Position numbers and translations under genes: made by a program. From an uncultured Eubacteriales bacterium (GTDB lineage: Bacteria > Bacillota > Clostridia > Christensenellales > CAG-1252): a stretch of 46,653 bases of DNA. The DNA is taken from positions 1 through 46,653 of the forward strand of contig CADBTQ010000027.1 of NCBI GenBank assembly GCA_902797685.1. The letters are read 5' to 3'. The notes under the pieces are model-generated. The model saw nothing but the letters and a program-made list of their open reading frames with translations, searched no databases and was not told the origin of the DNA. Positions 10,001 to 33,682 of the stretch are shown one piece after another (position 1 is the first letter of the stretch; each line of letters opens with the position of its first letter).

Positions 10001-13000
10001 GGGTAACGACCAAGTGGGCATCCGCATGACGGCGGGCGTGATCTCGGGCATGAGCATGAAGTGGTATCAGGATATCTCCACGCTCGAGAGCGACGGTTAC
10101 ACCTCGGCGGTGTACGATTGCCAAGCGGATTGGACTAACAAGCTCTATCACGTTTGCTACTACGATCTGGAGATCGATACCGCAAGCGAGTTTTACAATC
10201 TGTATTTGTCTATCAACGCGGCGGACCTTTTCAACGGGGTCATGTTCCGCCTCAATTCGGATATCGTGATCGAGGGGCAAATGTTGCAACCCATCGGCAC
10301 CAAGGTCAATCCCTTTACGGGTATCTTCGAGGGCGGCTATCACACCGTCACCTTGGGTGAGGGTAGCGGCATTGCCGGCACCGATTACAGCGGCTTGTTC
10401 GGCTATATTGCCAAAGAGGCTGTGGTGCGCAACTTTATCCTGGACGTCAAAGAGAACGTGTTGTTGGGTTCCACCTGTCAATACGTGGGCGGTCTTGCGG
10501 GTCGTATCGACGGCATGGTAGACAGCGTGGCGGTCCACATGGGCAGCGATCCCGCTTCCAAACTGAGCGGCGCCAAAGTGGGCGGTCTTGCGGGCTTGGT
10601 CGGCGATGACGCGCGCTTCGTCAATACCTGGGTGGTCGTCTACAACGGCGGCGCTTCCAAGGTGGGCGAAGGGACTTCGGACGTCAACTGCTTGGGCGTA
10701 CTCGGCTCGGGCAAAGTCCAACTGACGATGGACGAGACCGCGCTTAACGCGGGCAACGTGCAATTCGTCGTCAACGTGACCGACGGACTGTCCTACTTCG
10801 ACGCTTGGTACACCGACATCTCCACCGCCACCACCTTTGCCCAATCGGGCGGCGCGGGGGCGTTGGGTACGTATACTCCCGTCGGCACGGTCAGCGGCAC
10901 GCCCGCTTTCGTGTGGTATAGACCGTTGTCCACCCTCAAGGGCAGCAATTTCACCCTCTCCTTTATCGGATTGGTGATCCGCGACGCGGAGGACTTCGTC
11001 AACTTCGCCAACAACATCAATACCTACGGCGATCAAGGCGCCAAGTTCACTTTGGATCTCGGGTATCAAGCCAGCGGCGCGCCCCAGACCGAGTTGGTCG
11101 TCGACCTCACCGAGTTTGCGCCTATCGGCAATCGCAAACATCCCTTTACGGGTACGTTCGACGGCACGGTGCCTTACGCTTTGGCTTCGTCTCGTGCGTA
11201 CACTTTGATCGTTAAGGGCAATCTTACCAAAGAAGACAACGCATTCGCCGCCGAGGGCTTGGCGGACTATTGCGGTCTGTTTGGCAACGTGGGCGAGGGC
11301 GCTCTCATTCAAAACCTCGTGATCCGCGCCGACTCCAAGGCGATCAGCGAGGACTATCAAGGGCAAACGATCGGCTTTAACGGCAGTATGTACACCGGCT
11401 TCGTCGCGTCTTATCTCGCAGGTACGTTGCGCAACGTCGTCGCCGTGCTGGACGCGGGCACCCGCATCGTCAACATCCACGACGACGCCTTGGGCGGTAT
11501 GATCGGCGTGATGAGCGACACGGCAGTGTGCAACAACGCTTGGTTGATCCTGCCCGAAAACAGCACCTATCACTCGGTGGGCGGTTTGGTCAAGGATAAG
11601 GTCGTACCTTATCAACAGATCGCTACCGATTACCCCTCGACCAAGTTGCCCTCGGTGATGTATCTGTGCGGCGACGGTATCTTGGGCGTGACTTACGTCT
11701 ACAACCGTTCGAGCAATCCCGCCCAAAACGTGGACGAGTTGCAGTTCAGTTTGACTTCGGTGTCGGGCGGCGCGCCCGCTTACGGATTTGTGGACGGTAC
11801 TTTGACCGATCCCACTCCCGTCTCCCGCTTTGTTTCCAAGGCGGACGAAGACGCGGCGGGCAAGGACTATTTGGCGATTTTCCTCAACCCCGCTATCTCC
11901 TCTTACGAGGACTTGGTGGCGCTATCGGATATGCTCAACGATCAAGGTCGTTCCTACTTGGGCGTGATCTTCTATCTGACCCAAAATATCACGATCAGCG
12001 GAGTGGATTGGACGCCTATCGGCGGCAACGTGGAGACGGGCGGAGGGGAATACCGCAAGGTGCCCTTTATCGGCGCGTTTGACGGTCAGGGCTACACGAT
12101 CACTTTCGCTCGCGACGTGACTTGTTCCGCTCCTTACGCGGGTCTCTTCGGTCTTTTGTCGTCTACCGCTCGTATCAGCAATCTGTACGTGGATACCCAA
12201 GCGACCTTTGGCGATTACAATACCGAATACGCGGGCGTGATCGCAGGGCTTGACCTTGGCGCCAGCTTGACCAACGTGATCGTGCGCTTTGGCAAAAACG
12301 CCTCTCTCGTCGCCGAGATCGACACGGGTAGAGTCGCGGTCAACGACGCGCTCTTGTACGACTTGGACGGCAACGTCACCAACTACGACACGGTCAACAA
12401 AGGCGTCAACGTGTGGGTGCTCAACTACAACAGCCGTTACAACGTGACCCAAAACCAAAAGGAAAAAGCCTTCTTCGACACCGTGGGCACCACTTGGCAG
12501 GGCGCTTTCAACGGCGGCGCCAACGTGGTCACCGTGGTCGCGGCGGGCGAGATGGAGATCGCGTTCGTGTTCGACGGATCGCGCAAGGTGGTAGGCGTGC
12601 GCCTGACCAACCCCCAAGGAGATTCCAACCCCATCAAAGAGTGGTACTCGGTGGAGGAGGGCGGCAACGTGTCTTACGACAACGGCAATTCGTACACGCC
12701 CGCCTACGACAGCTATGGCAAAGTGCTGTACGCCAGTTACTTGCAGGACGAGATCGGCAATTTGGAAGACTTGTTGGCGTTGGCTATCGACAACAACGAC
12801 GGTTACGACTTGTACGGTCTTACCTTCCGTTTGACCGCCGACGTGGTGATCGATCGTCCCTACCAAGCCATCGGCAACGAGAGCACGCCGTTTAGCGCAA
12901 CGTTCGACGGCGCCTTCCACACCCTCACCTTGGCTAAGGACGTGGTCGTGGACGGCTTGTATGCGGGTATCTTCGGCTACTTGGGCGATACCGGCTTGGT

Positions 13001-16000
13001 GCAAAACCTCAAAATGGACGTCAAAGGCACTTTGGGCGTCACCACGTACGTAGAGAGCGAGATCCAAGCGGGCAAGCGCAATACCGCCTACGCGGGCGCC
13101 GTCGCGTACAACTTAGGCAAACTCTCTTCGGTCATCATCGATATGACCCAAGCGACCATTCGCGCCGAGGAGATGAGCGGCTTTGCGTTCGGTTACGACG
13201 CGATGAACTACGCCGACAATACTTGGGTCATCTTCAATGCCAACAACGTCTACCCCTTGGTGGGTAGAGTGGCGGGCGGTGTCTCCAGCACGGTCAACTC
13301 CATGCAGATCGTGGGCGTGGGCAGCGTCAAGAGCGAGTTCTACTTCGACGAGATCGAAGGAGTGCAGACCCACTTCGTGCGTATGTTCAACGATACCGGA
13401 CTGATCGGCGGCAACACCTACGCCGTCAAGGGTTGGTACAGCGATTTCAGCCGCGATTATCAACTGTCCAAGTCCCTCAAAGTGACCGCTTTGGAAAGCG
13501 AAGTCACGGCGGGCACCAACGGTAGTTATTTGGCGGCCGACAGTTTGATCAACCGTCGCTTCGAAGTGGTCATCATGACGACTTTGATCCGCACGCAAGC
13601 CGAACTGCTGTCCATCGCCGACGACGTCAACAAAGGCGGCTATACCTTCAAAAACACCGTGTTTACTTTGGGCGCGGACATCGTGATCGACGATCCCGCC
13701 TTTACCTCCATCGGTAGCGAAGCCACCCCCTTCGAGGGCAGCTTCGTGGGTAGTTTCAACGGCACCTATTATCAACTGGTCATGAACCGCTACTCGGTCA
13801 ACGAGGATATGTCCCAAAACGACGAGGGCGTCGCCCTGTTCGGTGTGATGGCGGGTACTTTGACCGACTTGACCTTGCAAGTGAGACGCTCCTTCCACCA
13901 AGGTCAATCCACGATCGGCTGTTTGACCAACATCAACCGAGGGTTGATCGAAAACTGCTTGGTGGTCGTCCATGACGGCGTGACCGTAGACGGCGCTATC
14001 GTGGGCGGTATCGCGGGACAAAACGGCGGCTCCATCGTCAATAGTATCGTGCGCGTACGGAAGGGAGCGCTGCTTACCGCACTGTTTGCGGCGGGCGGCT
14101 TGGTCGGTCAAAACGAAGGGATCGTAACGGGATCCACCGGCGGCAGCACGGGTCAAAACGTGGTGTGGGGCGGCGTACGTTACGGTGCGTTCGGTTTTGA
14201 CGGCACCGAAACGCTGCAAGGCGTGATCGCTTCGGTCCTAATGGAAGGCAAGATCGAGGTGACGGGTACCGTCGGCGGCAATATGGGCGTCGGCGGCGCG
14301 ATCGGTACCTCTCAAAACAGAGGCAACGTTCAACGAGTCACCGTGCGTTTGGCGCCGGGCTCCAAGATCACTTCGGACAACTCTCAAGCGGCTTTGGGCG
14401 GCTTGGTCGGACGTTCGACGGGCATCATCGCCAACTGTATCGTTTCGGTGGACGGCGTGCTCGATGGCAACGTCGCCATGTCGGACAAAGCGGGGCAGGG
14501 CCACGATTACGTGGGCTACTTCGGCGGCAATATCCAAGGCACGGTCGCCAACTCTTGGTTGGTCGTTCCCGTTCCCTCCGATTACAAGACGGTGGGCAAC
14601 GGCAGCGCGGTCAACGTGTTACAAGTGTCGGGCGGCGGCAGTATCGACAGCTACTTGGATAGCGACAACAACATCATCTTTACCAATCTCAACACCCAAG
14701 GCGCCGAGCTGGACGGCTGGTACGTGGGTAGCGGTACCGCTATCCCCGCCAACGTGGGTAACGTGGACGGCGACAGTTTCCTGCCCTCGTCCTTGATCAC
14801 GGGCTGGACGGTCAACGTCATCTTTATCAACACCAACATCACCACGGTGGAGGACCTCAACCGCATGGCGCAGACGGTCAACGCCGGTTTGTTCGCCCCC
14901 AACTTGGTGTTCTACTTGCAAGCCGACTTGATCATCAACGCCGACGATCCTCTCTTTGCCGCCATCGGCAATATGGACAACGGCTTTAAGCACAACTTCT
15001 ACGGTTTGGGACACACCATCACCTTCCAAGGGGACGGCGCGATGCCCACGGGCGAATGGATGGGCTTGTTCGGCTACGTGACCGCCAGCGCGACCATCAA
15101 CGATCTGCACGTCATCATTACGGGCGCTAACGGCAGCGCCGCCAGCGTTATCGGCGGTCTTGCCGCCGTCAACAACGGTCGTATCGAGAATTGCTCGGTG
15201 CAACTGGGCAACGACCAGTCCACCGCCGTTTTGCGCGGCGTACAGGTGGGCGGTATGGTGGGCTCCAACGGCTCCACCGCGCGTATCGTGGGCGGCGAGT
15301 TCCACAACTACGGTATGCTGCAAGGCTTGGGCGTGGACAACCGCAACGTGTTCGTGGGCGGCGTCGTGGGTACCAACGCGGGTCGTATCGACTCGGTCAG
15401 GGTCACTCATACCATCTCCCACACCCAATACAACGTGCAAGCGACCTTTGAGTCCAACAGCTGGACGGGCACCGCTTATGCGGGCGGCGTCAGCGGCAAC
15501 AACACGGGCGAGATCAATCGCGTGCTTGTCAACTTAGAGGGCGCGGTCCTCTCCGCCAACAGCAACGTGATCGCCTACGCGGGCGGCGTCGTGGGCAGCA
15601 ACACGGGTATCGTCGATTCGGCGTTCGTGTCCGTTGCCAAAGATAGAGCGGGCAACCGCACGTCTATCTCGGTCAACCGCGGCGACGCGGGCGGTATCGC
15701 GGGTATCAACAACCAAGGCTTGCGCAACAGCATGATCGAGATCTTTGCCGACAACGGCTCGGTGGGCGACAGCGCCGTGGGCGGCGAGGGCAACAACGCC
15801 TTTGCCGACAACGTGTGGGTCTACAACGACAACTTCAATCTCAACTCGACTTCGAGCGAGATCAACAACATGACCTACTTGTCCTTGGGCGGCACGCCCA
15901 GCGTGGTGCACAACGATCCCGTGGAGATCTATACCACCGGTTATATCGTCTTTGACGCGGTCATCGACGCGGAGATGGGTCTCAGCGTGTATGCGGACGC

Positions 16001-19000
16001 TCACGTCAAGGGCGGCAAACCCGCTTTCCACAGCGTGCTACTGGACGACGTGATTCTCTACGAAGAGGGCGCTTTGCGTCTGCTTCCCGTCCGCGGAACG
16101 AGCGACGTGGAAGGCACTCGCGGCATTTGGGCGCGCGCCGAGATCAGGCGTAGCTTTGCCGACGAGACCGAACTCAAAGCGCTTGCCAAAGCGGTCCGCC
16201 TCAACGGACAGATCATCAAAGACTCGTCGAGTGGCGAGACCTACGGGTTGGCGGGCGACGTGGTCGTGACCGGCTCCTTTGCCCCGATCGGCACTTTGTC
16301 CAATCCCTTCGTCGCCACCTTCTCGGGCAACTTCCACGAGGTGGTATTCAGCGAGGGCGTATCCTTTGATAGCGGCGCGGCTCTATTCGGCGAAGTCGGC
16401 GCAAGCGGCGCGATCAAACAATTGGTCGTCCGTCATCAGGCGTCTCTGACCGACTCCAACTCGGCGGGCGTCGTGTTGCGCAACCGCGGCGTATTGTCCA
16501 ACCTGGTCGTGTACGCCGACGAGGGCGTTACCCTTGCCAACAGCGTGTATCGTTCCAGCGAGCGCGAGGGGGACAACTTGTGGCTCATCAGCCGTTCGGA
16601 AGTGTCGTTGGGCACTCCCGACGTCAAGATCATCGTGGTACACGGAGAGGGCGACGTGGTGATCGCCAACGCCTCTCAAGCGCTTGCCGGCAACGAGGGG
16701 TTGACTTTCGCTCCCGCCGTTTGGTCGGAAGTGGAGGAGTACACCACCTTTGCCGGTTGGACCCAAGACAATCGTATCTTGGAGCGCGAATCCTACGCCA
16801 ACAACAACTTTACCACCGTGGGTAAGACGGGCGAGTCCAACTACACCGCCGAGTTCTTGAGCACCCGACTGGGTACCCAAGCCCAGATGGCGGTGCTGCT
16901 CACTCTGCTTGGGATGGAATACAACGCCGCCAACGTTCAATTCGATATGGTGGCGGACATCGACTTCGATCTTAGCGCTTATCCTCAAGATATGCAGACG
17001 ATGGAGTCCTTCCGCGGCTTGTTGGACGGACACTTCTACACCTTGCGGCTCCAAAACGCCAACACCCAAGCGGTGTTCGGCACCATGCGAGCGGGCTTTA
17101 TCCGCAATTTGGTCATCGATATCCGCCCGCTTGCCGACGACGTATTCTTGTGGGAAGACTTGTCGACGGCGACTTTGCAAAACGTCATCGTCAAGGCGTC
17201 CCGCTTGGACGAAAGATTGGCGGATTCGCACAACGTGTCCCTCAATATGACTTCGGTCTACGTGTTGACGGATAGCTTGGCGACCGTGGAAGATCTGGAT
17301 CAATACGTGACCGACAAAGTCGGCGTCATTTATACCACCCAACCCGATCTGGTCGGCTTCGAATCGGTGGGCGGTTACGCGCACGCCGTGGGCGGTGAAG
17401 ACGACACCCACTTCTTCGTGGGTTGGCTCGTCGGCTCCGCTTCCCGTGCGGGTACTTCGGTCGAGTTGAGGGGCGAGACGGGCGAAAACCGTATCTACAC
17501 CGCCAAGTATCTATCCTCGACCATCGCCAGCGCGCAAAACTTCGAGGATATGCGCCAAGCGGTGGAAAACGGCTTCGATTTTGCCGGTAAGACCCTTATC
17601 TTGGGAGCCGATCTCGAACTCAACTCGGCGACCGTCTCCGCTCCCTTCAGGGCGACATTCAAGGGCAACGGTTACAAGATCAACTGGCTCGGCTCTAACG
17701 CCGTGTTCGGGTCTTTCCAAGGCAAATTGGAGGGGATGTTGCTGATCGCGCCTCAAGCGCCCTTCGCCAATGCGAGCGTGGGCGGGGTCATTAAGGACAG
17801 CGTTTTGGTGACTTCCTCCTACCAAGCCGAGGGCAATTTCTCCTTCGACAACGCTTGGGTGGTCGGTAGTCGTCCCGAGGCGGCGGGTCTCAACGCCATC
17901 GCCTGCGATCTCAACGCCATCGAGGTGGTTGGATTGTCCTTAGCGGACGAGATCGCTTTGACGGTCAGACCCATCGACCCCAACTTCTATCTCTTGTGGA
18001 CGGACGGCGAGGACAAAGTCGTCGTCAACGATCGCTACGACAGCGTGGTGCTCAAGGGCACCGGCTCGGTCTTGGGCGTCAAGGCGTCCAACGAAGTTTC
18101 CGACAACTTGGATATGGAGTGCTACGGCATCGCTACCGCGCACGGATACCAAGGCGTGGTCAAATTGACCGCGGACATCGCTTTGGGCAAGGCGTACCTG
18201 CCTTTGACCCGTTACGTCGCGCTCGACGGTCAACGTCACACCATTACCATCCTCGACGACGACATGGTGCTCATGCAAAACATCACCAACTTGTACAGCT
18301 CGGTGAGAGATCTGCGCATCGTGGTCAAAGCGGGCGTCAACCGCTTTACCGTCAACAAGTCCGCAAGAGGCAAACTCATCAACGTGGTCGTGGATTACGA
18401 AGGGGACGCCACTATCGACTTCGGCGGCAGCACCGCTCGCGCCGATTACGAAAACGTTTGGTTGTTGCACAACTATCCCACCGGCACCGACTCTGAGATG
18501 GGCTCGGCGTACATTTATCCCGAATCCGTCAACGTCCTGCGCTACTGGGGCGGCAAGATCGCCGTCACCTTCGTGGAGTCGGACGCCGCTATGTGCCGCT
18601 TTACCGCGGTGGCGGACGAAGGGTACACCTTCTTCAGTTACTACGGCAGCCGTACCCAATCGGACGAGACCATCTCCGCTTCCCAAGTGGAAGGCGACCG
18701 CATCCAAGCCAAGTTCATCAAGCAAAACATCGATTCCAAGGCGGATTGGTACAATTTGGTGGGCGCTATGCAGGACGCGCACGGCGACGGTATCGGACGC
18801 ACCTTCTATCTGTCGGGAGACTTGGAGTTCGACGACTCTATGGCGGCATTGAGCGGCTTTGCGGGTACTTTGGACGGACAGGGCAACAGTATCGTGATCA
18901 CCGCCGCTATCTCGCATCCTTTGTGGACGCTCAAAGAGAGCGGAACGATCCGCAACTTGGCGGTGGAGATCAAGGTCGCGCCCGCGACTCCCATCACTTG

Positions 19001-22000
19001 GTTCGATCAAGCCAACACCTCCACTCATACCTACTATGACAACGCCTGGTTGGTCAGCTACGTGGGTGAGGTGGCGCATACCGAAGGCGGCAGTATCACC
19101 ATCGTTGACAACGGCGTGGGACAAGGCGGCTTTACGGTCGACTACGATCAACAAGGCTTCGTGTTCGTCCCCGCCAACGAGTCCGAATACAAACTGCACA
19201 CCTTGGTCAACAAAGAGACGAGCGCCGTCACGGACGCCGAAAGATGGGATATGCACCTCTCCATGGGTGACTATCTCGCCAATTTCGACAACTGCTATTC
19301 CATTACCATCGTGTACGAAGGCGTGGATAGCGCGGCGGTCAAACCCGTCATCAATATCGACAAACCCAACCTGTGGAGCGACGACACCTCGTCCAATATC
19401 GAGGCGGTGTTGACCGAGGGCTACCTATTCTTAGGCTTTACTTACGACGCCAACCCGGCGATCATCCCCGGTGACAACTGCATGAAGTTGAGCGTGGACG
19501 CGGGGCTGTTGACTTCCAGCGTGACTCTGACCGCTCGTTACGTGTCTTTGTCTTCCGATTGGACGGGCATGACCTACGGCGATATGAGTCCCGCCCAACT
19601 CAACGACTACCTCACCTTGTCCGACGAGGTGTGGGCGGCAATGGGTATGAGCGGCTTGACCGACTCTACAGGCGCTTACCAAGTGACCCGTTCCATCTTG
19701 CGTAACGGCGACACCCTCGAGGTGGATCCCGCGACCAAGATGCCCGTGCACGCAGGCAACTACAACGTGGTGTTCGAGATCGTCAACAAGGCGGACTACA
19801 AGCAAGTGGGCGTCAGCGTCAACCTGGTGTTTACCATCAGCAAAAAGACCCTCTACTTTGAGTCGATCACCCTCTCCGAGCGCAACTACGACTCCACGGC
19901 GGACGCTCGCGCTTTGAGCTTGGTGATGGGCGGTTTGACCGAAGGGGATCAGATGTATCAAGCTTATCTCAATACCGATCACGTGTATTTGCAATACTTC
20001 GACTCCGCTTTGGGCACCGTGACCGCCAACGCCGGCACGTGGAACTTGATCGTGAGAGAGGATTCGTATTTGGATTGCGACAGCGACCTGTTCTACTTCC
20101 AATACGATTACGATCTGCCCATGGACGGGGTGTTGTATCAGTACGTCAAGCGCAACGGCGTGCCCGTGGCGACCACGCCTTTCGAGCGCACCATCAACAA
20201 GCAAGTGCTCAACTTGACCGTCAATACCGTCACCGTTTCCTTCCTCGACCAGTTCGGCAAAGTGGAAGACGGCGTCCTCATGCCGTTTGACATCAGCAGC
20301 GTGCTGCAATCGGCTTGCACTTACGATCAATCGGGCTTGAGCGAGGAAGACAAAGCCATCATCGCCAAGGCGAAACTGTTGTTGGTGTCGGGCGATAGCA
20401 TCGTCTACGAAAACGGCGAGTACGCGTATCGTTACAACCTGCGCCACGTGGGCAACTACGACATCTTGCCCAACCGCGAAGCTTTGCAAAACTACGAGCC
20501 TCGTATCAGCGAGCGCACCGCGTTGTTCTGCATCCAACAGGGCAAAGTGGCGGTCAGAGTGGTCGACACCGAGATGCAATACGGCAACCGACTGTCTCAA
20601 CTCAACTACCGCTACTTCCGCGCGGACGGTGTGAGCGAGGAGGAGATCATGTGGGACGAGGCGCACTTCGACCTCTACGTCGGGGCGTTTGCCAACGTGT
20701 CCACCTTCGCCGACTTTGCCGCCTATTCGGCATTGGATATCCGTCCTATCTGCGCGGTAGTCGAAGGAGAGGACATGGACGAATCCACCCTGACTTTGGG
20801 TACCTACCAAGTCAAGTATGCGGTGGGGACGACCGACTCTGCTTTGGCGTCCTATGAGGGGTACGAGCCCGACTATCAACACGGCTTGTATATCGCCGTA
20901 AGCGACCCCGCTTTGGTGGTGGTGCCCCGCGTGGCGACTTACCGTTTGACGACCGGTTCCAGCAAAGAGTTCGGCGCTGCCGACACGGCTTTGGGCGGTC
21001 GTATTGTCGAGGGCGGTATTGCCAACGGCGACAGACTGGTGTTTGAACGTCAAGCGGGCGAATTGGTCGGCGAGTACGACGTGTCGGTCAAGGTGTTCCA
21101 CGAAGACGTGGACGTCAGCGACAACTACGCTCTCACTCCCGAGAGGGAATACAAGTACTACGTGGTCGCTCGTACCGTGTACGTCAAGCGTGTGGGCAAC
21201 AACGTGTTCCACTACGGCGACGACGCCATTGCCGATATGCCTTACGGTTTGTCCGTCTCGGACGAAGTGCTCTCCAATATCACCAAAGCGTTGGGCGTCA
21301 GCTCGCTGTCGGCGGTCTTCCGTATCAAGATCGGTTACTTCGGCGACATCCACTCGGTGGGCGAGTACAGAGACATCACTCTCTCTCCCGATATGCGCGC
21401 CGCTCGCGTTTCGGACGAGGTGTACCAAAACGCTTTGGCAGGTATCCACTTTGTGTTGGATCAAACCAGCAATCGTTATACGATCGTACCGCAGACTTTG
21501 ACCGTGCAAGCGCCCGACCACAGCCGTGATTACGACGGCACGGCGGAACTGAGCGGTATCGGACGCAACGACGTCGTCGTCAGCGGTTGGATCAACGACG
21601 CCGACCGCCGCAGACTGGAAGTGTACGTGGATGGCTGGCAGAGCGATATCCGCGCCGAAGCGGGTATCTACACCTACACGCCTATCGGTATGGCGGTCAC
21701 CCTCAAAGCGGGCGTGACCGATACCAGCTTGCTCGCCAACTACACGGTGGGACGGGTCATTTCGGGCCGTTATACCATCAACCGTTTGGCGGTCAACGTG
21801 TCGGTGTCCGTGGGCAGTTACGACTCGGACGGCACCTTCTTGCCTGCCGAAGACGCCGAAGTCATCTTTGGCGATCCCAATTTGGCTTGGTACTTCGAGG
21901 TGACCGATATGCCCGGTTACTTGGGCGAGTTGATGGAGATCTTCTACGAAAAAGAGGATACCAGCGACTATGCGATCAGCGAGTACATCAAGGAGATCTT

Positions 22001-22724
22001 GTCCTTGCGCGCTTACGACGTATTCTCTCTGCCCGCAGGGCACGTCATCGGCTCGGATAACGGCGGCAGAATGGAAGACGTCTATTGCCAAAACAGCAAT
22101 TTGTCCATCCGCTTCGATATGCCCGACCAGGTGGAAGTCACCGAGGTGCAGATCATCATCGACAACATCCGCTTAATTTCCGCTTCCCAATACGCTACCC
22201 CCACCGTTTCCTTTACGGTCAGGGCGCTCAAAGAGGACTACAGCGGGGACAGCCGCGTGATGTTGGAACTCAAAAACTACCTGACGCAATCCTCGTTCGA
22301 GGGGATCAAAGTGGGACAGATCGTCGCGCTCAATCCCGCGGTCAGCGTGCAATTCGTGGAGCGCGTCCAGTTGGGCGACGGCAGTTTCTCCTACAGCTTG
22401 GTGCCCTACGTGTCCGACAACGGGACGATGTACGAGTACAGGCAAGACGAGGACAACAAGATCATGTACGCTATTTGGCAGGGCGAAGAGGTCCGATCGG
22501 ACGAGGTGATGACCGCCAACGTCGAGATCGAGCCCACCTTCTGGGAGTCTTTGAGCGACAAACTGCAATCCAATATCCCGCTGGTGGCGGGCGTGTTGGG
22601 CGGCGCCTTGGTGTTGGGCGTTGGCGGCGGCGTGCTCGGTTGGGCGCTCACTCGCCGTAGAAAGATCAAAAACGCCGCCAAAGCGGCAAGGAAGCAAAAC
22701 GAGATCGCTTCCAAACGCAAATAG
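4074..22724 (+). CDS. Giant 6,216-residue modular surface lipoprotein
   Basis: The ATG at 4074 follows an AGGAGA ribosome binding site. The signal peptide ends in a lipobox (LCLTAC, Cys28), predicting a lipidated N-terminus. The body consists of about fifteen modules: a strand reading roughly PIGN-x-x-x-PF-x-G-x-FDG followed by GLFG and an RNL strand, typically followed by GG-(L/I)-x-G ladder repeats resembling GLUG/beta-helix repeats. Several modules are joined by InlB-like GWY/GW segments. The C-terminal ~1,100 residues hold MBG/YDG-like domains (NYDST, RDYDGTAEL). A membrane helix (GVLGGALVLGVGGGVLGWAL) and a tail beginning RRRKIK follow. No LPXTG motif is seen. A function in adhesion or as a surface stalk is inferred. 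The frame is unbroken over 18.6 kb, arguing that it is maintained. Confidence 0.88.
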   Translation: MKTRTIQLKVIVVLVAMLTALALCLTACAPDSSLEAKSASVTLIERNALASGENVVKYDTASSVPTERHGNYYLVRTVQQMRYVLTTEDSNQYLLMNDFVVEDGSWASHNSDAPRTFTLSGKGYDSSWNETGANHTLTFRPNASDTTVKSTSAYGGLFGVFDGVLQDLTYKFEGRLECDLNAAGVGTAYYGSLAGVLSGTIQNCTVSYSGTISAYGNANGKTVYAGGIAGQMKGATLTDTIVYIGGAVYARNMVKDDDSTSKNCKNYAGGLAGLMSDSGTSAARPTTLSGCDVSMAGSIYANDLGAVSGFGQTIYVTGQNGAGYYFVSGGLAGEAGSAALSNNKIKLTGRVYSTGGTYSSVDGGAAGGLFGLTSSGATLSIQNNVFTLGMTVRCENQRAEGLGGGKHPGNTVLGGLIGRMLGSATASGLKGNAFYYQANLAVSASDNADGKDFYGYVVGVGNNFGSFNGGNNWFVYRGGADSDTGYVTDIPTRQTSDSSGNESNNTCGNLGRLLVYGGGEVEVSVNQVTNRLVFEAKQQYSPFYRWLTNMGGNVALTNASEVSGSTFSPSSTTGVLYAVFLTREIDDSGKYVQWTEEMRSGLNFSWNTVSLTADVTVTKGVNLLDTYSGTFEGNGHTVTFGNGVVMYGKDVNQDEAVVVGLFGRLGSSGTVRNLNVTFAGTLYGGDQSANSTDDNYSAAVYMGLIAGVNEGTITNINVTLSQAAKLVALGRNVTLGGLIGHNKGSVSNIVLTIDGTLQSNAEVTVVGGLIGLQAEQSGGVTFDKINVDLRGQLVARQRDNAYQAVNCKMGGLIGVSQAALTFSNVAVNVRDVSNFTGDVLTMGCTHNTDAYSGEDGLLDVVNEWTISNSATKIPEILDALNDVNVALASQVTYHEVMIELTNVQARGIQVVASEKDPSLSAQNYFTKYIKNPILSLDSGAPCSTCSGNCHKAEFVANHDGYNYALSNTWALGTFKQYPDRSADYSTELGVRALPYFGSEPQSTATVSHLNFIFVRDGSAVATMNGDGSFVFSVPLDDDSHVFTGWYVDFDQSTMVNPSYVTTQVIGGKETSCFVPGQGQAGGVFFSSVISNLITTTAELDYLATTTKAGQRYEGVIFSLGADLTFNSAFVPIGNKTHPFGGSFDGKLHTVTLAGGFDLDQAEDGLGLFGCLDSTALVKQLTVTVSGSVSAPKKFVFGAVAGINYGTIGEGRQQDVSVNVLASVSGAKYVGGAVGQNYGLIQNLAVIVDNDSILSANGLGGDETLTAAAIAGGVVALNDGLGTVRNVQFSAPVHAVLMYEGTVIANASNALSLAGGIVGANYGNVYSGVANVYIEDDSKRLALALGTGGAIRRAGMLIGYNGDQSDIDSLWAVYSLPTAGFVLPSMDVDGAYDADLIVGQDSAKANRLIRYGYGNIGTDIYANMEGRQLKGGSIVFNADNDATNTPFYGFTMTLKGGESVDNASGETYSPQVSTISTQGVEGQTCYAVFVDSQINNKEELYALAALVNSGFQAYANYIVKLTGTKLQLLPTDPGYATIGVDYPFVGTFDSNNYAIEIRSDGASFLPLFGIIAETSGIRNLELDINASMTATRSVIYEGVEALGMLACVNLGTVNGVRFTTRSQAIGSGAVGALVGYNKGSINGTTSVVLYTDNTAGMDIAAGAKGQIAGGVVGINAQGGVIGSDMVAGVSITVYNGTVQAFVEGEQAAGAITGINYGKVLGVVVEDNGRLSSAGDVGLVAGINRGEVGAATVTATSTATFGGSSYPAHLGGVVGTNEAGATVGVTSSTIRVNWQAAHSQADGVFGGIVATNDGLVQNTGVNLTASVGAGLVGGLVGEQGLRSVLSSEVTLGQNATLTGTTHAGGLVGKLVGTVARSAANLYGVVASSGLGGGMVGESLTGATVDSCYAVLSNDLSALGSAKVGLAIGRSASSDVGVNSWAVASNRIRTLASPSQDSYGFNVLKIVGNATVIPSFVEKGNDQVGIRMTAGVISGMSMKWYQDISTLESDGYTSAVYDCQADWTNKLYHVCYYDLEIDTASEFYNLYLSINAADLFNGVMFRLNSDIVIEGQMLQPIGTKVNPFTGIFEGGYHTVTLGEGSGIAGTDYSGLFGYIAKEAVVRNFILDVKENVLLGSTCQYVGGLAGRIDGMVDSVAVHMGSDPASKLSGAKVGGLAGLVGDDARFVNTWVVVYNGGASKVGEGTSDVNCLGVLGSGKVQLTMDETALNAGNVQFVVNVTDGLSYFDAWYTDISTATTFAQSGGAGALGTYTPVGTVSGTPAFVWYRPLSTLKGSNFTLSFIGLVIRDAEDFVNFANNINTYGDQGAKFTLDLGYQASGAPQTELVVDLTEFAPIGNRKHPFTGTFDGTVPYALASSRAYTLIVKGNLTKEDNAFAAEGLADYCGLFGNVGEGALIQNLVIRADSKAISEDYQGQTIGFNGSMYTGFVASYLAGTLRNVVAVLDAGTRIVNIHDDALGGMIGVMSDTAVCNNAWLILPENSTYHSVGGLVKDKVVPYQQIATDYPSTKLPSVMYLCGDGILGVTYVYNRSSNPAQNVDELQFSLTSVSGGAPAYGFVDGTLTDPTPVSRFVSKADEDAAGKDYLAIFLNPAISSYEDLVALSDMLNDQGRSYLGVIFYLTQNITISGVDWTPIGGNVETGGGEYRKVPFIGAFDGQGYTITFARDVTCSAPYAGLFGLLSSTARISNLYVDTQATFGDYNTEYAGVIAGLDLGASLTNVIVRFGKNASLVAEIDTGRVAVNDALLYDLDGNVTNYDTVNKGVNVWVLNYNSRYNVTQNQKEKAFFDTVGTTWQGAFNGGANVVTVVAAGEMEIAFVFDGSRKVVGVRLTNPQGDSNPIKEWYSVEEGGNVSYDNGNSYTPAYDSYGKVLYASYLQDEIGNLEDLLALAIDNNDGYDLYGLTFRLTADVVIDRPYQAIGNESTPFSATFDGAFHTLTLAKDVVVDGLYAGIFGYLGDTGLVQNLKMDVKGTLGVTTYVESEIQAGKRNTAYAGAVAYNLGKLSSVIIDMTQATIRAEEMSGFAFGYDAMNYADNTWVIFNANNVYPLVGRVAGGVSSTVNSMQIVGVGSVKSEFYFDEIEGVQTHFVRMFNDTGLIGGNTYAVKGWYSDFSRDYQLSKSLKVTALESEVTAGTNGSYLAADSLINRRFEVVIMTTLIRTQAELLSIADDVNKGGYTFKNTVFTLGADIVIDDPAFTSIGSEATPFEGSFVGSFNGTYYQLVMNRYSVNEDMSQNDEGVALFGVMAGTLTDLTLQVRRSFHQGQSTIGCLTNINRGLIENCLVVVHDGVTVDGAIVGGIAGQNGGSIVNSIVRVRKGALLTALFAAGGLVGQNEGIVTGSTGGSTGQNVVWGGVRYGAFGFDGTETLQGVIASVLMEGKIEVTGTVGGNMGVGGAIGTSQNRGNVQRVTVRLAPGSKITSDNSQAALGGLVGRSTGIIANCIVSVDGVLDGNVAMSDKAGQGHDYVGYFGGNIQGTVANSWLVVPVPSDYKTVGNGSAVNVLQVSGGGSIDSYLDSDNNIIFTNLNTQGAELDGWYVGSGTAIPANVGNVDGDSFLPSSLITGWTVNVIFINTNITTVEDLNRMAQTVNAGLFAPNLVFYLQADLIINADDPLFAAIGNMDNGFKHNFYGLGHTITFQGDGAMPTGEWMGLFGYVTASATINDLHVIITGANGSAASVIGGLAAVNNGRIENCSVQLGNDQSTAVLRGVQVGGMVGSNGSTARIVGGEFHNYGMLQGLGVDNRNVFVGGVVGTNAGRIDSVRVTHTISHTQYNVQATFESNSWTGTAYAGGVSGNNTGEINRVLVNLEGAVLSANSNVIAYAGGVVGSNTGIVDSAFVSVAKDRAGNRTSISVNRGDAGGIAGINNQGLRNSMIEIFADNGSVGDSAVGGEGNNAFADNVWVYNDNFNLNSTSSEINNMTYLSLGGTPSVVHNDPVEIYTTGYIVFDAVIDAEMGLSVYADAHVKGGKPAFHSVLLDDVILYEEGALRLLPVRGTSDVEGTRGIWARAEIRRSFADETELKALAKAVRLNGQIIKDSSSGETYGLAGDVVVTGSFAPIGTLSNPFVATFSGNFHEVVFSEGVSFDSGAALFGEVGASGAIKQLVVRHQASLTDSNSAGVVLRNRGVLSNLVVYADEGVTLANSVYRSSEREGDNLWLISRSEVSLGTPDVKIIVVHGEGDVVIANASQALAGNEGLTFAPAVWSEVEEYTTFAGWTQDNRILERESYANNNFTTVGKTGESNYTAEFLSTRLGTQAQMAVLLTLLGMEYNAANVQFDMVADIDFDLSAYPQDMQTMESFRGLLDGHFYTLRLQNANTQAVFGTMRAGFIRNLVIDIRPLADDVFLWEDLSTATLQNVIVKASRLDERLADSHNVSLNMTSVYVLTDSLATVEDLDQYVTDKVGVIYTTQPDLVGFESVGGYAHAVGGEDDTHFFVGWLVGSASRAGTSVELRGETGENRIYTAKYLSSTIASAQNFEDMRQAVENGFDFAGKTLILGADLELNSATVSAPFRATFKGNGYKINWLGSNAVFGSFQGKLEGMLLIAPQAPFANASVGGVIKDSVLVTSSYQAEGNFSFDNAWVVGSRPEAAGLNAIACDLNAIEVVGLSLADEIALTVRPIDPNFYLLWTDGEDKVVVNDRYDSVVLKGTGSVLGVKASNEVSDNLDMECYGIATAHGYQGVVKLTADIALGKAYLPLTRYVALDGQRHTITILDDDMVLMQNITNLYSSVRDLRIVVKAGVNRFTVNKSARGKLINVVVDYEGDATIDFGGSTARADYENVWLLHNYPTGTDSEMGSAYIYPESVNVLRYWGGKIAVTFVESDAAMCRFTAVADEGYTFFSYYGSRTQSDETISASQVEGDRIQAKFIKQNIDSKADWYNLVGAMQDAHGDGIGRTFYLSGDLEFDDSMAALSGFAGTLDGQGNSIVITAAISHPLWTLKESGTIRNLAVEIKVAPATPITWFDQANTSTHTYYDNAWLVSYVGEVAHTEGGSITIVDNGVGQGGFTVDYDQQGFVFVPANESEYKLHTLVNKETSAVTDAERWDMHLSMGDYLANFDNCYSITIVYEGVDSAAVKPVINIDKPNLWSDDTSSNIEAVLTEGYLFLGFTYDANPAIIPGDNCMKLSVDAGLLTSSVTLTARYVSLSSDWTGMTYGDMSPAQLNDYLTLSDEVWAAMGMSGLTDSTGAYQVTRSILRNGDTLEVDPATKMPVHAGNYNVVFEIVNKADYKQVGVSVNLVFTISKKTLYFESITLSERNYDSTADARALSLVMGGLTEGDQMYQAYLNTDHVYLQYFDSALGTVTANAGTWNLIVREDSYLDCDSDLFYFQYDYDLPMDGVLYQYVKRNGVPVATTPFERTINKQVLNLTVNTVTVSFLDQFGKVEDGVLMPFDISSVLQSACTYDQSGLSEEDKAIIAKAKLLLVSGDSIVYENGEYAYRYNLRHVGNYDILPNREALQNYEPRISERTALFCIQQGKVAVRVVDTEMQYGNRLSQLNYRYFRADGVSEEEIMWDEAHFDLYVGAFANVSTFADFAAYSALDIRPICAVVEGEDMDESTLTLGTYQVKYAVGTTDSALASYEGYEPDYQHGLYIAVSDPALVVVPRVATYRLTTGSSKEFGAADTALGGRIVEGGIANGDRLVFERQAGELVGEYDVSVKVFHEDVDVSDNYALTPEREYKYYVVARTVYVKRVGNNVFHYGDDAIADMPYGLSVSDEVLSNITKALGVSSLSAVFRIKIGYFGDIHSVGEYRDITLSPDMRAARVSDEVYQNALAGIHFVLDQTSNRYTIVPQTLTVQAPDHSRDYDGTAELSGIGRNDVVVSGWINDADRRRLEVYVDGWQSDIRAEAGIYTYTPIGMAVTLKAGVTDTSLLANYTVGRVISGRYTINRLAVNVSVSVGSYDSDGTFLPAEDAEVIFGDPNLAWYFEVTDMPGYLGELMEIFYEKEDTSDYAISEYIKEILSLRAYDVFSLPAGHVIGSDNGGRMEDVYCQNSNLSIRFDMPDQVEVTEVQIIIDNIRLISASQYATPTVSFTVRALKEDYSGDSRVMLELKNYLTQSSFEGIKVGQIVALNPAVSVQFVERVQLGDGSFSYSLVPYVSDNGTMYEYRQDEDNKIMYAIWQGEEVRSDEVMTANVEIEPTFWESLSDKLQSNIPLVAGVLGGALVLGVGGGVLGWALTRRRKIKNAAKAARKQNEIASKRK
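4420..19000 (+). repeat. About fifteen degenerate beta-helix (GLUG-like) modules in the giant protein
   Basis: Module cores (F-x-G-x-FDG...GLFG...RNL) are centred near 4440, 5950, 7460, 8690, 10290, 11130, 12010, 12870, 13710, 14960, 16280, 17010, 17640, 18200 and 18850. Good examples are FVPIGNKTHPFGGSFDG near 7458, QPIGTKVNPF near 10290 and APIGNRKHPF near 11127. The module-to-module distance is about 1.2-1.6 kb in the first part and only about 0.6-0.7 kb near the end. In the shorter units the intervening GG-x-x-G ladders are mostly missing. Confidence 0.75.
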
Positions 22725-31164: not shown

Positions 31165-31256
31165 GCGGAAGTACCCAAGTGGCTCAAGGGGCTCCCCTGC
31201 TAAGGGAGTAGTATGTTAGAAGCGTAGCGTGGGTTCAAATCCCACCTTCCGCGCCA
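31165..31256 (+). tRNA. tRNA-Ser (GCU anticodon)
   Basis: The acceptor stem GCGGAAG pairs with CTTCCGC. The anticodon stem CTCCC/GGGAG carries loop CTGCTAA, with anticodon GCT at 31199-31201. A long class II variable arm and a GTGGG-TTCAAAT-CCCAC T arm follow. Discriminator G and an encoded CCA end the gene. It decodes AGC/AGU serine codons. The terminator begins within the encoded CCA. Confidence 0.97.
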
Positions 31257-31289
31257 AAAAAGGTTGCAGTGGTCTGCAACCTTTTTTGG
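31254..31289 (+). terminator. Intrinsic terminator of tRNA-Ser
   Basis: A 15-bp stem (31254-31268 with 31275-31289) has a GTGGTC loop and a T6 run in its right arm. Its left arm uses the CC of the tRNA's CCA end. Confidence 0.88.
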
Positions 31290-31415: not shown

Positions 31416-31436
31416 CAAATCCCACCTTCCGCGCCA
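31416..31436 (+). repeat. Duplicate of the tRNA-Ser 3' end (21 nt)
   Basis: Bases 31416-31436 are identical to 31236-31256, which covers half of the T loop through the CCA. The copies are 180 bp apart. The second is also followed at once by a strong hairpin (31437-31480), so the 'tRNA end plus hairpin' layout occurs twice although the hairpin sequences differ. No gene lies between the copies. The arrangement resembles the attachment-site duplication left by elements that integrate at tRNA 3' ends, but a partial tRNA duplication is equally possible. Confidence 0.8.
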
Positions 31437-31480
31437 TGAAAGAATCCACTTTTGTCGGTAGACGAAAGTGGATTCTTTCA
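31437..31480 (+). terminator. Strong hairpin/terminator after the tRNA 3' copy
   Basis: A perfect 16-bp stem (31437-31452 with 31465-31480) carries a 12-nt loop that itself contains GTC/GAC. The right arm reads AAAGTGGATTCTTTCA. It has no extended T run, so termination efficiency is uncertain. Confidence 0.6.
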
Positions 31481-31483
31481 ACT

Positions 31484-31656
31484 AAATCCGTCCAAGCGGA
31501 CGGGAGAAATCCACCGATGGTGGGTGAAATCTGCTGCGCAGGAGAAATCCGCCTAACGGCGGGAAAAGGACGGATTTAATTTCACCGCAAGCAAAGCGCG
31601 CGATTTCAACTGAGGGCATAGCCCGAAGATTTCAACACGGCACAGCCGTGATTTCA
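31484..31656. repeat. Hairpin array 1: short variable hairpins separated by a constant GAAATC/GATTTCA spacer
   Basis: An outer perfect inverted repeat, AAATCCGTCC (31484-31493) and GGACGGATTT (31568-31577), encloses three small hairpins: CCACC-GAT-GGTGG (31511-31523), CTGC-TGC-GCAG (31531-31541) and CCGCC-TAAC-GGCGG (31549-31562). GTCC-AAGC-GGAC (31490-31501) shares the left arm. To the right come a weak CGC...GCG (31586-31598), GGGC-ATA-GCCC (31614-31624) and CACGGC-ACA-GCCGTG (31636-31650). The spacer is AAATC on the left (31484, 31507, 31527, 31545) and its complement ATTTCA on the right (31579, 31603, 31629, 31651), a period of 18-26 bases. The stems are unrelated in sequence; only the spacer is conserved. 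Together with the flanking repeat copy this fills the region 31257-31686, which has no gene. Confidence 0.85.
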
Positions 31657-31686
31657 CAATCATAATCGTCAAATCGGGGGAGAATT

Positions 31687-32037
31687 ATGACTAAGAATAC
31701 GCTGTCTGAGTTATCTATCGACTTTGCTGTCGAAATACTAAAACTATGCGATCATGTTAAAGGTCATTATTCGCTCGTTAATCAGTTAGAGCGTTCCGCA
31801 ACGAGCATTGGCGCCAATATCCGCGAAGCCAATTATGCGCAAAGTAGGGCGGATTTTATCGCAAAATTACAGATCTCTTTGAAAGAGTGTTACGAAACCG
31901 AGTACTGGTTAGAATTGCTGAAAAAGGCGGAACTGTACGACGTTGAAATCGTAACAGACCTTTCGCATACTTGCGGAACTATCCGCAGATTGCTCGTGTC
32001 TTCCCTCAATACCGCCAAAAGCAATCAAAACTCGTGA
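31687..32037 (+). CDS. Four-helix-bundle protein (S23/IVP, Avd-like)
   Basis: This 116-residue, all-helical protein has the signature of the TIGR02436/S23 four-helix-bundle family: VNQLERSATSIGANIREA, then AQSRADFIAKLQISLKECYE, then TEYWLELLKKAEL. Relatives are encoded in 23S rRNA intervening sequences of Leptospira and Coxiella, and the fold is shared with Avd, the accessory protein of diversity-generating retroelements. Members are basic, oligomeric and thought to bind nucleic acid. GGGGGAG precedes the ATG. The gene is visibly richer in A+T and in codons such as TTA and CTA than its neighbours, suggesting transfer. It sits directly after hairpin array 1, and its stop codon is inside its own terminator stem. 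No reverse transcriptase or rRNA is nearby. Confidence 0.9.
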   Translation: MTKNTLSELSIDFAVEILKLCDHVKGHYSLVNQLERSATSIGANIREANYAQSRADFIAKLQISLKECYETEYWLELLKKAELYDVEIVTDLSHTCGTIRRLLVSSLNTAKSNQNS

Positions 32038-32189: not shown

Positions 32190-32846
32190 ATGGAGTCTGC
32201 ATTGGCGATCAAATTGAAAGAGAGTATCAATATCCGCGTTTACGTTCAAAACGACAACGGTTGGACCAAAGTGCCCGCCAAGATGGCGGACGGCGAGGCG
32301 GAACTCGACCTAAGAGGGTTTGGAAAGGACGCGCGTTTCCATTTGGAATTGAATATGGCGGAGCGGTTTAGGGAGATCGTCGCCGGCAGTATTATGGTCG
32401 GCGGCAGTTGGAAACCCATTCATCACGACGTGGGCTTGGATACCAAGTGGAGCATGAGTTTCGTGGGCAATTTCCTTCTTAAGGAGATCCGCTTTAGCAC
32501 CCAAGACGGCGAGGACATCTCCATCCCCGTGCGCTATATCGGCGAAGAAAAGAAGGAAGAGCAAAAAGAGACTTTGCGCTTGCCCGTGACGGTGCGTACC
32601 GACTACCAGTTGGTCAACGTGATGTGGCAGGCGATGGATTGCGCCGCTTACGACGTGACGGTCTTTGCGGTGGAAGGCGCCGCCAAATACATGGTCGCCA
32701 CCGTGCGCGTGCCCTCTTCGCAACAGTATTTGTGCATCGACAAATTGGCGCACGGCGCCTACTACGTGCGGGTGAGTGCTTTGGACGAAGCCAACGCCGT
32801 GTTGGTGCTTAGCGACAAAGTGCGCTTTGAGATCCCCCGTAGATAA
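32190..32846 (+). CDS. Unknown soluble beta-rich protein, two-part architecture
   Basis: I do not recognise this 218-residue protein. There is no signal peptide or membrane helix. Residues 1-120 look like a mixed domain with MVGGSWKPIHHDVGLDTKW. A charged linker (GEEKKEEQKE) follows, and the C-terminal ~90 residues (VNVMWQAMDCAAYDVTVFAV to VLSDKVRFEI) have the strand pattern of a fibronectin type III-like domain. The ATG has an AAAGGAGAAG site. It has its own promoter and terminator and stands between the two hairpin arrays. That position may be accidental. Confidence 0.65.
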   Translation: MESALAIKLKESINIRVYVQNDNGWTKVPAKMADGEAELDLRGFGKDARFHLELNMAERFREIVAGSIMVGGSWKPIHHDVGLDTKWSMSFVGNFLLKEIRFSTQDGEDISIPVRYIGEEKKEEQKETLRLPVTVRTDYQLVNVMWQAMDCAAYDVTVFAVEGAAKYMVATVRVPSSQQYLCIDKLAHGAYYVRVSALDEANAVLVLSDKVRFEIPRR

Positions 32847-32858
32847 TCGATCGGACCC

Positions 32859-32892
32859 AAAAAGCACCGACCCCGACGGTCGGTGCTTTTTT
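32859..32892 (+). terminator. Intrinsic terminator
   Basis: A 14-bp stem (AAAAAGCACCGACC, 32859-32872, with its complement at 32878 onward) has a CCGAC loop and ends in a T6 run, just after the 218-residue protein gene. Confidence 0.9.
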
Positions 32893-32936
32893 GCTATATG
32901 TGCCGAGGCAAATGCGAGATTTGATACCGAGTAAAG

Positions 32937-33120
32937 TGCGATATATTCGCTCGCTCGTTAGCGACAGGATATCGATCTCCATCCGCTACGTTCCGTAGGA
33001 ATATATCGCATCGGCTTGCCGAATATATCGCAACACAGCCCCCTTGTTTGGCGCAAGGGGGCTGTGTTGTTTCGCAAATTCCCTAAGGGATTATATCGCC
33101 GCGGCGCTTTTTAACGCCGC
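32937..33120. repeat. Hairpin array 2: variable hairpins separated by a constant ATATATCG spacer
   Basis: An outer perfect 13-bp inverted repeat, TGCGATATATTCG (32937-32949) and CGAATATATCGCA (33020-33032), encloses TCGCT-CGTT-AGCGA (32951-32964), CTACG-TTC-CGTAG (32986-32998) and TCGGC-TT-GCCGA (33011-33022). To the right are TCCC-TAA-GGGA (33080-33090) and GCGGCG-N8-CGCCGC (33101-33120), again separated by TATATCGC. A long terminator (33031-33069) interrupts the right part. The architecture copies array 1 (outer inverted repeat, three inner mini-hairpins, two or three outer ones), but the constant spacer and the stems are different. Confidence 0.8.
33031..33069. terminator. Bidirectional 16-bp hairpin terminator
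   Basis: The stem begins CAACACAGCCCCCTTG (33031-33046) and pairs perfectly with 33054-33069; the loop is 7 nt. It lies between the plus-strand 218-residue gene and the minus-strand membrane-protein gene, within hairpin array 2. Confidence 0.75.
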
Positions 33121-33130
33121 AAGAGCGGGG

Positions 33131-33682
33131 TCATTCCCCTTTCTTTTTGAACTTGGCGACTAAGGTGTAGGTCAACAGCGCCACCGAGCCCACGCACAGC
33201 ATGATACCGAAGATCATTTCGCTGTATCCCAAACGGAAGTCTTCCAAGCACAGTTGGCACAGCCCCAACGAAAAGGCGCACGCGCCCGCCACTTCCAGGA
33301 TGGCAAATCGGAGGCCGCCCCCTTGTTTGAGCGAGAAGTAGCAGATCACGCCGTCGATGATCATCAACGCGCCCAAGATGGTGAGCACAAAGGGGATCAA
33401 CAGCACTACCACGGTCGCCAGATCGTGGGTACAAAAGGCGATACCCACCGCGATGATAGCGCCGTTGAGTACGCCCATCGCGCTGATCATGGGGCGGCGG
33501 CTGATGCCGATGATGATGAGATTGATCACCCCGTACACGCACAGGATCACCCCGATGGTGATACTGACCGCGGCGCTGACGTTGACGCAAAACAGTATGC
33601 CCATCGTCAACATGAGTATCGACACGAGGATCTTTTCGACAAACGAGGTCATCGCTTCTTTTTCTTGGATCGAGTTGTTCAT
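33131..33682 (-). CDS. HdeD/DUF308-like six-helix membrane protein
   Basis: This 183-residue protein has six evenly spaced hydrophobic helices in pairs, beginning ILVSILMLTMGILFCVNVSA and including GVILCVYGVINLIIIGI. Each pair has a small Gly-rich turn, the pattern of the DUF308/HdeD family of small membrane proteins of poorly known function. The ATG at 33682 follows GGAGAAAC. It begins 18 bases after the stop of the SGNH hydrolase gene and so is probably the second gene of that operon. The C-terminus is basic (KFKKKGE). Confidence 0.7.
   Translation of the reverse strand: MNNSIQEKEAMTSFVEKILVSILMLTMGILFCVNVSAAVSITIGVILCVYGVINLIIIGISRRPMISAMGVLNGAIIAVGIAFCTHDLATVVVLLIPFVLTILGALMIIDGVICYFSLKQGGGLRFAILEVAGACAFSLGLCQLCLEDFRLGYSEMIFGIMLCVGSVALLTYTLVAKFKKKGE

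Follow-up and report, generated by a model that had tools for sequence, protein, structure and literature searches.

Three described systems resemble the hairpin arrays considered here. In the first, REP/BIME repeats and RAYT (TnpA_REP) together constitute the 'REPtron' (PMC8266576, PMC2817692). The second is the intervening sequence of 23S rRNA, a selfish element of about 430-650 bp in which an open reading frame of the S23p/IVP family lies between mutually pairing flanks; the solved structure of an IVP relative shows four-helix bundles assembled as a pentamer (PMC4990558). The third, the Gut-1 RNA, has a consensus of hairpins joined by UGAAAU spacers (RF01706, PMC2864571) and is catalogued among the noncoding RNAs whose role is unknown. 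The locus treated here, array 2, lies in a window of 46,653 nucleotides (the whole stretch of DNA that was analysed) from an uncultured Eubacteriales bacterium, and is probably a non-autonomous, gene-less copy of a repeat named R1, which would be part of a selfish, REP/REPtron-like DNA system linked to IVP genes.

With the REPtron this system shares dispersed palindromes that carry a short constant tag and alternate in orientation, the clustering of repeats at one associated gene together with their scatter across the genome, and the ties between repeat classes and protein clades. It has multi-copy dispersed extragenic palindromes (R1 and a second family, R2) as well as a gene flanked by inverted repeat copies (the element denoted C7), though this gene is IVP, a four-helix bundle (PF05635) that has no known catalytic motif, and not an HUH transposase. 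The genome has no cognate HUH/Y1 transposase, the tag is a spacer of 7-10 nt (GCGATATAT) instead of GTAG (or CGTC), the stems are not conserved between units and the IVP elements target tRNA 3' ends. The comparison is best taken as one of working plan, not of membership. The 23S rRNA intervening sequences hold a protein of the same family, but the elements described here are located at tRNA or gene 3' ends and not in rRNA, their pairing ends are arrays of small hairpins, and gene-less dispersed copies exist. Gut-1 is matched by array 1, the neighbour of array 2 in the window, with 53.7 bits (gathering cut-off 50), but it covers one half of one spacer class, and array 2 gives no match to its covariance model even at E<=1. 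CRISPR arrays differ in that the variable parts are here palindromic and the constant part is 7-10 nt long. A literature search of partial coverage returned nothing relevant on a spacer-hairpin/IVP system, and earlier descriptions may exist.

Array 2 is one R1 repeat copy of about 270 bp (Table 1). The original prediction, made for 32937-33120, was of a 13-bp perfect inverted repeat, of hairpins within and beyond it and of the spacer ATATATCGCA, and these are all present. It also held that the architecture is that of array 1, which is correct for the general plan. However, the 13-bp repeat (32937-32949 and 33020-33032) is not an independent outer stem of the kind that array 1 has but consists mostly of spacer in both orientations (TGCGATATAT plus TCG), and the unit extends further than had been proposed, from about 32859 to 33124. 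Its left side contains three forward spacers (GCTATAT, TGCGAGAT and TGCGATATAT) and its right side four reverse spacers (ATATATCGCA twice, TTTCGCA and ATATCGCC), and the hairpin kept across copies is TTCC-GTA-GGAA (32991-33001), not CTACG..CGTAG. The two arrays do bracket a four-helix-bundle gene, that of the window IVP (31687-32037), and one other gene (32190-32846), as had been noted. Array 2 carries no IVP open reading frame, whereas the C7 and window IVP elements do. The window also holds a giant open reading frame of 6216 codons (4074-22724).

Table 1. Features of array 2 and of the IVP element beside it (positions in the window)
Feature	Position	Strand	Support or remark
tRNA-Ser gene upstream of window IVP element	31165..31253	+	
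Duplicated 21-bp tRNA 3' end, directly left of IVP element	31416..31436	+	
Terminator-like hairpin opening the window IVP element	31437..31480	+	
Array 1, hairpins with GAAATC spacers in one orientation and then inverted; Gut-1 (RF01706) is its left half	31479..31660	+	
IVP gene (PF05635, 23S_rRNA_IVP), GAAAT-spacer clade	31687..32037	+	
R1 copy, the whole of array 2	32859..33124	-	76% identity over 276 bp with the C7:86.6-86.9 kb copy, E 6e-50; 11-copy alignment
Intrinsic-terminator-like hairpin AAAAAGCACCGACC..GGTCGGTGCTTTTT	32859..32891	.	also present in other R1 copies
Degenerate hairpin TGTGCCGAGGCAAAT, then spacer TGCGAGAT	32899..32920	+	compared with R1 copies
Forward spacer TGCGATATAT, left arm of the 13-bp inverted repeat	32937..32946	+	
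Centre of array 2; spacer orientation flips here	32947..32990	.	
Hairpin TTCCGTAGGAA, R1-conserved (TTCCTACGGAA on the minus strand)	32991..33001	.	R1 copies aligned
Reverse spacer ATATATCGCA, first copy	33001..33010	-	
Hairpin TCGGCTTGCCGA, nearly invariant in R1	33011..33022	.	R1 alignment
Reverse spacer ATATATCGCA, second copy	33023..33032	-	
Large hairpin CAACACAGCCCCCTTG..CAAGGGGGCTGTGTTG, co-varying between copies	33031..33069	.	
Hairpin AATTCCCTAAGGGATT with reverse spacers TTTCGCA and ATATCGCC on either side	33070..33100	-	
Terminal hairpin GCGGCGCTTTTTAACGCCGC	33101..33120	.	stop codon of minus-strand gene 33131-33682 lies 11 bp away

A detector with 1000 dinucleotide shuffles as its null was used to look for a self-consistent spacer that recurs between hairpins. 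Array 1 gives 3-4 units, which 0 of 1000 shuffles reach, but array 2 taken alone is near chance, with one unit for 6-mers (reached by 216 of 1000 shuffles) and two for 5-mers (19 of 1000), so that, judged against shuffled sequence as the original prediction had proposed, array 2 on its own would be open to doubt. The doubt that this raises over array 2 is removed by the R1 copies found across the genome (G000; 1.78 Mb, 95 contigs, 98.3% complete) and by the pattern GCGATAT-N8-30-GCGATAT, which has 61 matches genome-wide against 1 for the reversed pattern. GTGATAT arrays (59 matches) and GATTTC arrays (26) are dispersed in the genome as well, each against 1 reversed match, and with these three families the presence of several self-consistent spacers in one genome, a point that the original prediction put up for checking, is confirmed.

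Two gene-less families were read from the GCGATAT loci, R1 with at least 11 copies and R2 with at least 8, which have this spacer in common and are mostly located at gene 3' ends. The R1 set is composed of array 2 (minus strand), ten aligned copies and one partial copy. The repeat begins with a terminal hairpin, followed by GCGATAT, AAATCCC..GGGATTT, GCGATAT, AACACAGCCCCC..GGGGGCTGTGTT, GCGATATA, TTCGGCAAGCCGAA, TGCGATATAT and TTCCTACGGAA, after which come the centre, inverted spacers together with additional hairpins, and lastly a GCACCGACC terminator. The best-conserved parts of the 11-copy alignment are the near-invariant GCGATAT spacers, and those before the AAATCCC hairpin and after the large hairpin are invariant in 11 of 11 copies; nine base pairs have changed on both sides, and in one R1 copy (L233) the large stem is entirely different. 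In R2 a terminator at the centre separates a forward array from an inverted one, and at several places composites of about 700 bp combine GTGATAT, R1 and GATTTC parts, with the outer GTGATAT arrays inverted.

With its 76% identity to the C7 copy (E 6e-50), the membership of array 2 in the R1 family is unambiguous. It is linked most closely to the rest of the GCGATATAT repeats and to the C7 IVP element and not to array 1, which is of the GAAAT/Gut-1 class, and the standing of the two arrays around the window IVP gene is probably a coincidence, array 1 going with that IVP and array 2 with the spacer class of another. The original prediction of an independent one-off, generated by a local process, is thus not borne out, as array 2 is one member of a dispersed, homologous family of repeats that have both stems and spacers in common, although the architecture does recur with unrelated stems in many species. 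GCGATAT matches number 3-18 in congeners, and mostly 3-6; the expansion of R1 and R2 is therefore recent and particular to the source species. As to whether the locus is empty in relatives, the answer is partial: congeners lack the array beside orthologous genes, but the orthologues of gene A and gene B are not adjacent there, and these genomes, one per species with no strain-level empty sites, offer no clean empty site for array 2. A comparison with MITEs, which are marked by a target-site duplication and by mobilisation through a transposase in trans, likewise found neither a clean empty site nor an element-linked recombinase.

The genome encodes three IVP proteins of the PF05635 four-helix-bundle family, to which 2rld is the nearest solved sequence, and each of the genes has adjoining spacer-hairpin arrays. 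The C7 IVP has GCGATATAT spacers on both sides in inverted orientation, its flanking arrays being TGCGATATAT and ATATATCGC. A sample of 101 genomes (source and relatives) gave about 70 further IVP matches, and a scan of the collection gave at least 550 IVP relatives, of which 80 loci were read. Two or more units flank IVP in 48 of the 69 loci from relatives and in 69 of the 80 further ones (117 of 149 in total); the corresponding figures are 4 of 414 for shuffles and 4 of 91 for distant flanks. On the IVP tree the spacer class changes 14 times, compared with 33 times (minimum 30) in shuffles, and when spacer labels are permuted within genomes 1 of 1000 permutations reaches 14 changes; the spacer therefore goes with the protein and not with the genome. 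However, such coupling would also be expected if array and gene were simply co-inherited as one unit. Genome G016 has 34 GCGATAT matches, although ATGATAT or GAAG spacers accompany the IVPs sampled from it, and the source genome has 59 GTGATAT matches but no IVP of exactly that spacer, from which it follows that solo arrays can outlive or lack an IVP partner.

Some IVP genes (L038, L042, L048, L073) are flanked by short tandem repeats (such as GAATGCG / CATTCCG, or CACTCTTCACTTTT) with no clear hairpins, which is perhaps a spacer-only variant. The Avd protein of diversity-generating retroelements is a distant four-helix-bundle relative of IVP, and at one locus of a relative (L054, G087:C47) a reverse transcriptase is found about 0.5 kb away from a weak PF05635 match, as would be expected of an Avd. 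The present genome differs in having no reverse transcriptase. Since the Y1 transposase is absent as well (0 matches to PF01797), both enzymes were rejected as candidates acting in trans.

A tRNA gene lies on the same strand within 600 bp upstream in 78 of 118 IVP loci and on the opposite strand in none, with 0 of 128 in the control region, and by class the linkage is 53 of 59 for GAAAT and 4 of 12 for GATAT. In the tRNA-linked form, the CCA end is directly followed by the element's own terminator hairpin, then by the array and then by IVP, a plan to which array 1 conforms. In 124 pairs, elements with 75% identity or more over 450 bp or more adjoin different tRNAs and unrelated downstream DNA; such elements therefore move, and in the GAAAT clade IVP elements target tRNA genes. 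In the window a 21-bp tRNA-Ser 3' end occurs twice, 180 bp apart (31236-31262 and 31416-31442), with the IVP element after the second copy, and this duplication resembles the att scars of a tRNA-integrating element that was later lost.

In 30 loci (L102, L103, L118, L123, L126, L141, L172 and others) the stop codon of IVP shares an ATGA with the start of a downstream gene that differs between loci, and homology between the elements ceases there. The genes found after it encode GNAT, NUDIX, a WapI-like immunity protein, a pyrophosphatase and unknowns, as if the IVP element carried exchangeable cargo. At L030, a C-terminal remnant of an IVP of another clade is located 457 bp past the IVP stop and is followed by a second cargo gene, which is 97% identical to the cargo of L107 from another species. 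An integron-like cassette array was considered and rejected as a general plan, as a search of all loci found an IVP remnant after cargo in L030 only. At the tRNA-Thr site of genus g3 (L179-L187) the array lineages of sister species have at least three different spacers at one site, and all stages from array plus IVP down to a single hairpin are found; a comparison of filled and empty alleles at this site met several array lineages and decay states and no simple empty allele.

When hairpins are read in spacer orientation, the loops are T..C in 171 of 340 and G..A in 11 of 340, a polarity that the two inverted halves share, and a C-G closing pair is found in 289 of 340, these being counts that pool related loci. 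The polarity of the loop goes with the spacer and not with the transcript, and the opposite strand has c(GNA)g or c(GNNA)g loops. GNA and GNNA loops form exceptionally stable DNA mini-hairpins (PMC4686876). A transcript of the whole array would have both loop types and an oriented DNA unit is therefore the simpler reading, so that loop polarity favours a DNA over an RNA function. UUCG-type RNA tetraloops are ruled out, since not one occurs among 213 GAAAT-class hairpins. Solo arrays obey the T..C rule less strictly (14 of 50, 6 of 28 and 0 of 12), and the trend is kept, more weakly, only in the GCGATAT and GTGATAT classes.

It is unlikely, on this evidence, that the arrays are structured RNAs comparable to the Gut-1 sRNA, or 3'-UTR structures for transcript stability or termination, in which case R1 and R2, placed behind stop codons, would be multi-hairpin terminators that have been domesticated, and IVP an RNA-binding partner. 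The Gut-1 score of array 1 above the cut-off, the compensatory stem changes, the position of R1 and R2 at gene 3' ends with terminators inside them and the presence of IVP homologues in 23S rRNA intervening sequences (PMC4990558) would all agree with such a role. However, DNA hairpins predict covariation equally, a terminator opens the tRNA-linked element so that transcription of the array is not assured, and the loop polarity flips with spacer orientation inside one would-be transcript. Rather more improbable is the idea that the arrays are neutral by-products, an old repeat having been spread by generic recombination and its stems kept perfect, as they mutate, through template switching at replication (quasi-palindrome correction), while IVP would play no part. 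Stems that vary freely yet remain palindromic would be expected in this case, as would the tandem duplication of units observed at L037; GNA loops would nucleate single-strand hairpins, and the element was found to contain no recombinase. It is at odds with spacers that are conserved and tied to the IVP clade, with IVP elements that home to tRNA 3' ends in fixed orientation, and with the recurrent inversion of spacers around the IVP gene. A strict REP/BIME identity for array 2, with the HUH transposase RAYT as its mover, was already disfavoured and is very hard to credit: dispersed, intergenic, palindromic and orientation-paired repeats around an associated gene would fit it, but the genome is without PF01797 at 98.3% completeness and the palindromes have no GTAG tag beside them.

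The preferred reading of array 2 as a gene-less R1 copy within an IVP-linked system suggests the following mechanism. The autonomous element would consist of the IVP gene and arrays of constant spacer plus variable hairpin, located upstream or on both sides with their halves inverted, and solo copies would have a terminator or nothing between the halves in place of the gene. IVP is proposed to read its clade-specific spacer together with the C-G-closed GNA/GNNA DNA mini-hairpin on single-stranded or extruded DNA, and this recognition would allow copying or movement of the unit in cis as well as in trans, possibly via single-stranded DNA, to gene and tRNA-gene 3' ends. Array 2, with its GCGATATAT spacer, would be served by the C7 IVP rather than by the neighbouring one, a partnership in trans suggested by the common spacer, the one link between the two. 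A more tentative proposal, which we regard as possible rather than probable, is that these elements represent a previously undescribed class of bacterial mobile DNA, in which a nuclease-less, pentameric IVP would specify by clade the spacer and GNA-loop mini-hairpin and drive the insertion of arrays at tRNA or gene 3' ends with exchangeable cargo, gene-less arrays such as array 2 spreading in trans.

Although IVP/S23 proteins have been on record for decades, no function had been assigned to them, and the Gut-1 RNA has had orphan status since about 2010; the present analysis connects the two. IVP thereby gains a candidate DNA target with clade-specific spacers, and tRNA 3' ends are recognised as insertion sites of IVP elements. 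Gut Clostridia may maintain a REP-like economy of autonomous and gene-less repeats, seemingly without a known transposase.
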